Source: Lachnospiraceae bacterium (lineage in GTDB: Bacteria; Bacillota; Clostridia; Lachnospirales; Lachnospiraceae). Taken from it: DNA of 64,000 nt. This document shows positions 1-54,759 of the stretch, in pieces. The notes beneath the pieces were generated by a model. It did no database searches. It was not told where the DNA came from and saw only the letters and a list, made by a program, of their open reading frames with translations. The DNA lies in assembly GCA_017622845.1 (NCBI GenBank), contig JAGAQJ010000016.1:1-64000 (forward strand), in the 5' to 3' direction. Each line of letters begins with the position of its first letter. Positions within the stretch are counted from its first letter, which is position 1. The position numbers and the translations under genes were made by a program.

Positions 1-207
1 CTATGCCGGAACAGGCTGGCGGAGAATGCTGATATTTTCTTATGGGTGATTTGATACATCAGCGAAAATCTGCATGGACGCGGATTTAGGACGAAACGCG
101 TCCATGGATGGCGCGTAGAGTCCGGTCGCGGACTCATTTAAAGACTTTGGCATCACCCATTAGAAAATTCGAATTCGGAGTCCAACCGCCTGTACTGGCA
201 TAGGACT
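1..207 (+). ncRNA. TwoAYGGAY-like structured RNA element, copy 1
   Basis: Seen: nested stems enclose two hairpins with AYGGAY-type loops. Outer stem 1-15 pairs with 189-203 (one A-A mismatch, one G-U). A 17-bp stem 34-50 pairs with 152-168 (16 of 17). Hairpin 67-86 has a 7-bp stem and loop ATGGAC. Hairpin 97-115 has a 6-bp stem with a bulged T and loop ATGGAT. A third hairpin lies at 118-135. The arrangement fits the TwoAYGGAY RNA motif known from clostridia and gut metagenomes, function unknown. It ends near a repeat border, GGCTGAACTGTTAC at 241-254, and may extend left of the window. The strand is set by the AYGGAY loops only; the symmetric stems do not prove transcription direction. Confidence 0.68.
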
Positions 208-12095: not shown

Positions 12096-12202
12096 GTAAC
12101 TGTTCAGCCGTATGGACTATTTTAACAGGACGAAGGTTGGAAGTCCAATTGCCTGTCACGTCATATGACGGCTGCCCTTCGTCCTGTTTTTACCGCTCTG
12201 TT
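12096..12202. repeat. Intergenic repeat element with 13-bp hairpin
   Basis: Begins with the border GTAACTGTTCAGCC (12096-12109). Bases 124-136 of this kilobase (AACAGGACGAAGG) pair perfectly with 176-188, followed on the plus strand by a T-run. The part GGAAGTCCAATTGCC through CTTCGTCCTGTTT is related to the right end of the element at 171-225. It lies between the SGNH-like gene and the pse promoter. Confidence 0.75.
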
Positions 12203-47134: not shown

Positions 47135-47229
47135 AGGGGTTTCATACTTTTTTAACAATAAAGTTACAATTCACACCCTGCTGTTATTCAACACGAGACC
47201 TCAAAACACCATCAAAGCGGCTTACGGCG

Positions 47230-47358
47230 CAACTATTCTGTACCCTCATAGTACATCAAAGCCATGCAGAACCACTTCGCAGCGGCTTAATACCTGACAC
47301 GGTTAACGTATTCCCATGCGCTCTGCTGTTAATGCGGAGTGCTGTACGGAACAGTTGC
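47230..47358. repeat. Intergenic repeat element upstream of mbl
   Basis: Close relative of 30894-31031: both have GCCATGC, ACCACTTCGC, GCGGCTT/GGTGGCTT, ACGTATTCCCA/ACGCATTCTCA and the terminal GTGCTGTACGGAACAGTT. Differences in the arms of the last hairpin are matched on both sides (GCGCTCTGCTG against GCACTCTGCAG). Confidence 0.8.
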
Positions 47359-47401
47359 TTTACAACAGCTATATCGGTTGTTTTTTCACAATACTTTAGT
47401 A

Positions 47402-47483
47402 ATTTTCAAAATATTATGTAAATATATTATATAATCTAAAATTTGTTTTGTAAACCCGTAAATTTACAGAATATTTTGAAAAT
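47402..47483. repeat. AT-rich palindrome, 21-22 bp arms
   Basis: Bases 47402-47423 pair with 47462-47483 with one mismatch (416 against 469); loop of 38 bases. It lies between the repeat at 47230 and the structured element at 47642, within the 972-base gap between mbl and uvrA. Confidence 0.75.
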
Positions 47484-47485
47484 AG

Positions 47486-47521
47486 AAACAGTTCAGCCGT
47501 AGGCGGCAGTTCTATGCCGCC
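47486..47521. repeat. Border motif followed by 7-bp hairpin
   Basis: AAACAGTTCAGCC (47486-47498), then GGCGGCA (47502-47508) pairing with TGCCGCC (47515-47521). Related to the right end of the element at 171-225. It marks the left border of the AYGGAY element region. Confidence 0.65.
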
Positions 47522-47641
47522 CTTCTGTGTATGAATAACTGCTTGTTATCTATCTTAAAGCTTTCCATTATTTATTGTTTTAGATTTCTAAATACAGTAA
47601 AGTTTATTTGTTATTAACACAGTTTTTTGCTTTCGATGAAC

Positions 47642-47874
47642 AGAAAACTGCAAATAGTATCCCGTAGAATGCCTCGGTGGAGAATGGTGATATTTCCTTA
47701 TCCGATGATGCTTTAGCAGGAGTAAATTTGCATGGAAGCAAATTTAGGCGAGACGGAGGCATGGATGCCGACTCGAGCCGGTTTAAGTCCTCATTAAAAA
47801 GCCTTGATTCATCGTATTAGGAAATTCCCATTCAAAACCAATGGCAGCCGGAGGGATACTATCTGCAGTTTTCG
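47642..47874 (+). ncRNA. TwoAYGGAY-like structured RNA element, copy 2
   Basis: Outer stem 47642-47663 pairs with 47853-47874 (20 of 22). Inside, GAATGG (47682) pairs with CCATTC (47828), and 47692-47701 pairs with 47816-47825 (9 of 10), continuing with CGATGA/TCATCG. Hairpin 47723-47746 has a perfect 9-bp stem and loop ATGGAA. Hairpin 47749-47775 has CGAG/CTCG and GGC/GCC stems and loop ATGGAT. The stems differ in sequence from copy 1 at many places but pair in the same way, while GGATTTAGG/AATTTAGG and CATGGAT are kept. No coding gene lies on this strand nearby. Confidence 0.72.
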
Positions 47875-47891
47875 TCCGAATAGGAATACAT

Positions 47892-47951
47892 AAAAAGCCG
47901 GACTGTTACTGAAAATGGTAACAGTGCTGCTGGTGACAGCAGAGAGCAGCT
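47892..47951 (-). terminator. Compound hairpin terminator after uvrA
   Basis: Minus strand: CTGCTG/CAGCAG hairpin, then ACTGTTAC (918-925 side) pairing with GTAACAGT (902-909 side), followed by CCGGCTTTTTAT. An outer AAAAAGC/GCTTTTT pairing closes the whole. It begins 3 bases after the uvrA stop. Confidence 0.7.
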
Positions 47952-54572: not shown

Positions 54573-54759
54573 GTAACAGTTCAGCCATGCAGAAATGATT
54601 GTACAAAATGACCGTGGGAGCTTGCTCACTAAGGGCAAGTTGTACAATCATTTCTATAGGGCAGACGCCCAACATGAAATAAGTTGTCGGAAAGAACAAA
54701 TATTATTGTTAAAAATTTACAATCCGACAACTTATGAATGAGCAAGGCTGAACTGTTAC
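54573..54759. repeat. 187-bp repeat with perfect 14-bp terminal inverted repeats
   Basis: GTAACAGTTCAGCC (54573-54586) and its exact complement GGCTGAACTGTTAC (54746-54759) bound the element. Inside are AGAAATGATTGTACAA/TTGTACAATCATTTCT around a CCGTGGGAGCTTGCTCAC loop, and ATAAGTTGTCGGA/TCCGACAACTTAT. It is the best-bounded member of the family and touches the stop codon of the beta-mannosidase gene. Confidence 0.92.

Follow-up and report, generated by a model that had tools for sequence, protein, structure and literature searches.

A TwoAYGGAY RNA inside a miniature transposable element of a Lachnospiraceae genome, and its proposed role in sequestering CsrA

Introduction

In the genome of a Lachnospiraceae bacterium, an mreB-like reading frame (to 46981) and uvrA (from 47954) are separated by 972 bases, and an earlier note had placed in this gap a structured RNA on the strand opposite to all of its neighbours. 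The positions and strands of the reading frames agree with that description, as the long frames around the gap (uvrB, uvrA, the mreB-like gene and flagellar rod genes, named by reading their translations) all lie on the minus strand. Which RNA this is, what carries it and what it might do for its host are the questions that the locus raises. All positions are those of the window, the whole stretch of 64,000 nucleotides that was analysed.

The RNA had been likened to TwoAYGGAY, a motif whose description lists it as a probable RNA and scores it as not cis-regulatory (Weinberg 2010; PMC2864571). A later article proposes it as a CsrA-binding sRNA of Clostridia (Gardner and Eldai; PMC4333381).

A TwoAYGGAY RNA enclosed by a long outer stem

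A scan with the Rfam covariance model for TwoAYGGAY (RF01731) supports the assignment, with a match of 68.5 bits (E 2.3e-9) against a gathering score of 43. The two hairpin loops that had been read from the letters, ATGGAA and ATGGAT, are both present (Table 1). In the model alignment ATGGAT fits AYGGAY, whereas ATGGAA deviates at its last base. Both contain what we take to be a CsrA-type site, namely ANGGA in a hairpin.

The core is closed by a further stem, which had been drawn as 22 bp. The stem exists but is one base shorter at each end, with arms of 21 nt that are 95% complementary, and it lies outside the Rfam model, just as the earlier note had supposed in placing it beyond the known motif. 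The predicted fold of the surrounding 256 nt (47630-47885) has a free energy of -95.8 kcal/mol, compared with -64.9 kcal/mol (sd 4.8) for shuffled sequences (z -6.4), and none of 200 shuffles was as stable.

Table 1. Features of the window copy, its carrier element and the second RNA copy in the window
Feature	Position	Strand	Basis
Left target-site duplication TGAAAATA	47477..47484	.	7/8 identical to 47910-47917
Left terminal inverted repeat GAAACAGTTCAGCC	47485..47498	+	1 mismatch to consensus
B-type RNA remnant, parts of outer arms only, 7-bp hairpin	47502..47521	-	compared by eye with B arms
Outer stem, 5' arm	47643..47663	+	arm complementarity
TwoAYGGAY RNA core, A type	47675..47840	+	RF01731, 68.5 bits
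Loop 1, ATGGAA	47732..47737	+	read from sequence, model match
Loop 2, ATGGAT	47761..47766	+	read from sequence, model match
Outer stem, 3' arm	47853..47873	+	arm complementarity
Right terminal inverted repeat AGCCGGACTGTTAC	47896..47909	+	3 mismatches
Right target-site duplication TGAAAATG	47910..47917	.	pairs with TGAAAATA, 7/8
Second window copy, B-type TwoAYGGAY RNA	17..183	+	RF01731, 91.8 bits

The RNA is carried by a miniature inverted-repeat transposable element

The long stem had given the unit the look of a mobile element bounded by terminal inverted repeats. The RNA does lie inside such an element, but the outer stem is an internal feature and not its terminal repeat: the true repeats are separated from it by 144 bp on the left and 22 bp on the right, and the duplications lie beyond them. 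The element spans 47485-47909 (425 bp), contains no coding gene and ends in 14-bp terminal inverted repeats of the GTAACAGTTCAGCC type.

The consensus ends, GTAACAGTTCAGCC ... GGCTGAACTGTTAC, are 14 bp long and lie outside the RNA. With at most one mismatch, the 14-mer occurs 289 times in the genome (134 + 155), and a reversed control sequence is absent. In 370 kb of genome stretches scanned for ends with at most four mismatches and a right end no more than 900 bp away, 108 left ends had a partner. An 8-bp flanking repeat matching at seven or eight positions borders 23 of these 108 candidate pairs, compared with 0.26 expected from re-dealt flanks; when six of eight matches suffice, 28 pairs are found against 1.2 expected. 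These 28 elements measure 550-590 bp with two RNAs, 304-448 bp with one and 79-187 bp with none. Short, non-coding and present in many copies, with terminal repeats and a fixed 8-bp duplication, the carrier has the features of a miniature inverted-repeat transposable element (MITE).

Other traces of this repeat are present in the window. An RNA-less element of 187 bp (54573-54759) has two exact ends and a perfect 8/8 duplication, TAAAATGT. Five further ends with at most one mismatch lie at 12096, 15451, 30894, 53173 and 61789, and at up to three mismatches the terminal repeat is matched 14 times, against 3.9 expected.

In relatives, uvrA lies upstream of mreB in 74 of 80 mreB loci, and in none of these 74 does the gap contain the loop motif on the strand of the window RNA. 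The gap measures 177-477 bp in 63 of them and more than 1 kb in 11, compared with 972 here; two gaps (L199 and L216) hold end-like pairs with at most three mismatches and no loops. The relative with the closest MreB (L141, 99%) lacks uvrA within 4 kb. Its sequence aligns with 47359-47454 and again from 47162 on, and the exact empty junction is not alignable. A segment of about 196 bp within this gap (47163-47358) is missing from L141, and because the alignment stops at 47359 and resumes at 47162, it may be a second, different insertion.

Full elements carry two divergent RNAs

The genome assembly (3.60 Mb in 76 contigs, 95.3% complete) yields 102 matches to RF01731, 101 of them over the cut-off; 14 control genomes yield none. 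At least 16 of the 76 contigs start within 300 bp of a copy. Copies have therefore probably broken the assembly, which makes 102 a floor.

The flanking sequences define two subtypes of copies, whose outer stems are unrelated. Subtype A, to which the window finding belongs, has outer arms like GAAAACGGCAGATAGTATCC, and subtype B has arms like GAAGGTCGGCAGTCCTATGCCGG. Each of 17 divergent pairs consists of one A and one B RNA, and full elements carry both, pointing away from a common centre. The window element still has its A RNA, and of B a 20-nt hairpin of outer-arm sequence is left. The second RNA in the window lacks its 5' side, which is cut off by the contig start, and is followed by a right end, GGCTGAACTGTTAC, at 241-254.

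Two or more occurrences of CNNGGANG are found in 84 of the 100 copies of at least 120 nt (two of the 102 matches are shorter and were omitted), compared with 1.2% of shuffles, a contrast that is partly circular because the model itself selects for loops. Hairpin 1 is absent from a subset of A copies.

The outer stem is a general trait of TwoAYGGAY RNAs

The presence of many copies permitted a comparison of outer stems between and within genomes. We took the best single locus from 29 of the 44 other genomes with the RNA, together with the window copy. At these 30 loci, duplexes between the two 45-nt flanks of the Rfam match average -48.9 kcal/mol, compared with -14.3 kcal/mol for 870 mismatched pairs. 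Pairing of the flanks passes the 1% control level in 29 of the 30 loci and exceeds all 870 controls in 26. The mean for 41 further copies from five genomes is -43.0 kcal/mol, and in one genome (G086) eight copies were read and have eight different outer stems. The earlier note had asked for a second genomic copy with compensatory changes in the outer stem; further copies exist whose stems differ in sequence and remain complementary. The outer stem is a general trait of TwoAYGGAY RNA, which suggests that the Rfam model is about 20-35 nt too short at each end.

Within the window's genome, both outer arms were recognised in 54 A and 37 B copies of the 102. Consensus pair cells are about 98% standard in both sets, and standard double changes occur at 11 pairs in A and 11 in B. 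An excess of G-U over A-C is expected if the plus strand acts as RNA. Among stem changes, 62 G-U and 42 A-C events were counted (p = 0.03), a weak RNA-strand bias that is carried by A (38:20) and not by B (24:22). Transversion mismatches in stems number 59.

A probable IS66-family origin of the element

IS66 elements have ends that begin GTAA and create 8-bp duplications. No IS66 transposase match is present in the window's own genome, and such matches occur in 18 of 38 genus genomes. Among the matches listed, 30 IS66 loci were read, and one of the 30 has ends of the type described here: in a genome of the same genus (G347, L295 483-923), a C-terminal fragment of IS66 tnpC lies between GTAACAGTTCAGTC and GGCTGAACTGTTAC in a remnant of 441 bp. 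Its reading frame ends about 50 bp before one end, and no target duplication flanks it (3/8). This fragment is likely a remnant of the parent element. Its position between the same ends, taken with the 8-bp duplications, makes it likely that the MITE descends from an insertion sequence of the IS66 family, and the fragment slightly raises the odds that the carrier is a MITE.

Two other candidates were set aside. A putative intact parent at C12:8799-11548 contains long reading frames that look metabolic, with no transposase seen, and searches for phage, plasmid or viral carriage, one of them with a single exact 26-mer, gave no match.

Carriage in related genomes

The RNA occurs in six of 20 genus genomes: the window's own, G309 (43 matches), G315 (13), G317 (13), G306 (6) and G307 (6). 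Two others, G308 (54 ends) and G314 (97 ends), have the same ends and no RNA match. G306 has A/B pairs like those of the window's genome. G309 has 43 RNAs and only four such ends; in its pairs the stems are unrelated and the inverted ends are of another kind, and among 20 of its loci inverted ends were seen in four and no duplication was found.

Many of the copies in G176, G122 and G042 form fold-back repeats about 300 bp long whose shared ends contain TCAAAA, and no duplication was resolved at them. The copies in G086, and most of those in G037, have flanks unlike each other. Carriage of the RNA by a transposable element is well shown only for the window's genome and is likely elsewhere.

Two side observations concern individual genomes. 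In G176, which belongs to another genus, the shared ends of the copies (L334-L337, L353-L357) bear on each side an outward-facing TTGACA, which resembles a -35 hexamer. In G434 (L311 2031-2798), a CRISPR array with 11 matched repeats starts about 380 bp from a TwoAYGGAY match.

Genomes with the RNA usually have csrA

E. coli CsrB and RF01731 belong to one Rfam clan (CL00106). We compared the occurrence of csrA with that of the RNA in a family sample of 299 genomes from 298 genera, in which the RNA is present in 45 and csrA in 154, and in a class sample of 391 genomes. With phylogeny and flagella ignored in each comparison, csrA is found in the family in 44 of 45 genomes with the RNA and in 110 of 254 without it (p 1.7e-13). 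The corresponding figures are 31 of 36 and 94 of 355 for the class (p 2.2e-12), and 25 of 30 and 86 of 345 for the class outside the family (p 2.7e-10). The sole family genome with the RNA and without csrA is G168, and those of the class are G522, G563, G602, G619 and G661; nine of the 36 class RNA genomes have only matches below Rfam's cut-off. Copy numbers per genome are at-least values, as up to nine candidates were scored in the family (15 of 45 genomes reach nine) and up to seven in the class. This co-occurrence lends independent support to the CsrA proposal already published for Clostridia.

Within the genus, csrA is present in 19 of 20 genomes and the comparison is uninformative. The only csrA match of the window's genome is a divergent frame of 62 aa that scores 57 bits, whereas a copy scoring 84-91 bits is present in 18 other genomes of the genus. 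The divergent frame, of about 60 codons, is located at L091 1501-1680 (C6:24010). Two types of csrA occur in the genus, and no gene of the canonical type was found in this assembly. Of the features by which a CsrA-sequestering RNA is recognised, the window copy has at least two ANGGA hairpin loops and a csrA gene in the same genome.

A proposed CsrA decoy and its alternatives

We consider it fairly probable that the window locus is an IS66-derived MITE, mobilised in trans and carrying a structured RNA that sequesters CsrA; the CsrA step is what limits confidence in the explanation as a whole. In the scheme that we infer for transcription, processing, CsrA binding and current mobility, the element would be moved by a transposase supplied from elsewhere. 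The transcribed strand would fold into the long closed stem and present two ANGGA hairpin loops, which would bind a CsrA dimer and titrate CsrA away from target mRNAs in the manner of CsrB and RsmZ. A probable role of the outer stem is to stabilise the RNA or to allow its release by RNase III from a longer transcript, and an A/B pair would give one sense RNA whichever direction transcription runs.

The source of such a transcript bears on an alternative to which we give distinctly less credence, namely that this is a selfish palindromic MITE that captured the RNA once, carries it as an idle passenger in most copies and maintains arm complementarity through DNA-level correction. No promoter-like site was found inside the element ahead of the RNA, and two plus-strand candidates lie to its left (five promoter-like sites compared with 2.3, sd 1.5, in shuffles). 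A transcript reading through from the gene upstream was considered and rejected, as single copies between tandem genes show no sense bias (11 sense, 18 antisense; 51 of 85 elements could be placed, with 22 at contig ends and 12 inside ORF calls omitted). The terminator-like hairpin of the B remnant upstream of the RNA, the divergence of the only csrA match in this genome and the lack of an IS66 gene there weigh against the decoy scheme. The missing promoter and sense bias also weigh against it and are what an idle passenger would lead one to expect, as are the weak RNA-strand bias in stem changes, the loss of hairpin 1 and the RNA-less elements with the same ends, including the many ends in G308 (54) and G314 (97). 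Because RNA-less elements share these ends and some A copies lack hairpin 1, the RNA is not needed for spread. However, a chance passenger would not be expected to co-occur with csrA, nor to recur with other ends in G309, G176, G122 and G042. The loops, moreover, are kept though the A and B stems wholly differ, an argument that is tempered by the selection of the Rfam model for loops.

A structural repeat of the REP/BIME kind, acting in cis as a transcription terminator or mRNA stabiliser, appears improbable. It would account for intergenic repeats in inverted pairs and for long stems, and both the B remnant upstream of the RNA and the region to the right of the element score as terminator-like, the former as a hairpin. 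Yet the 51 placed elements include five in convergent and six in divergent positions, with no enrichment between convergent genes, and the two conserved GGA loops and the csrA link would be left unexplained. A cis-regulatory leader of the downstream gene, the type that Rfam assigns (Cis-reg), is highly improbable, for the window RNA runs towards the 3' end of uvrA, copies are scattered across many contigs and the motif's description marks it as not cis-regulatory (PMC2864571).

Should the window RNA and its relatives be CsrA decoys, an RNA class of unproven function would gain a test bed of about 100 natural candidate copies in one genome, and a global post-transcriptional regulator would be tuned, or exploited, by transposable elements. 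A bolder proposal, which we advance with more doubt than conviction, is that CsrA decoys are recurrent transposon cargo, spread by unrelated carriers in several genera of Lachnospiraceae to tens or about 100 copies, with the divergent design giving one working decoy regardless of which strand is transcribed across an insertion. Transposition would then set the free CsrA level of the cell.

Comparison with known systems

The RNA family and the CsrA idea were already known, and the csrA co-occurrence test is new here. Open-access searches, which most subscription papers lie outside, found no literature joining TwoAYGGAY with transposable elements.

The window RNA shares with TwoAYGGAY RNAs (RF01731) the core structure, the two AYGGAY loops and the host group, Clostridia. 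It differs in its location within a transposable element, in its roughly 100 copies arranged as divergent A/B pairs and in its outer stem of 20-30 bp outside the Rfam model. The likeness to IS66-family MITEs consists of GTAA ends, 8-bp duplications and the tnpC fragment found between such ends in a relative; here, in contrast, a conserved structured RNA is the cargo and the host genome has no transposase gene.

REP/BIME elements are inverted pairs of structured intergenic repeats, an arrangement that is also seen here, whereas the present elements end in 14-bp repeats flanked by 8-bp duplications, and their hairpins are far larger and have conserved loops. With the decoys CsrB/RsmB and RsmX/Y/Z, the TwoAYGGAY RNAs have in common GGA loops in hairpins, membership in the CsrB clan (CL00106) and, by analogy, an expected decoy function. 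CsrB, however, is a single chromosomal gene of 369 nt in E. coli K-12, whereas the window's genome carries many mobile two-loop units.
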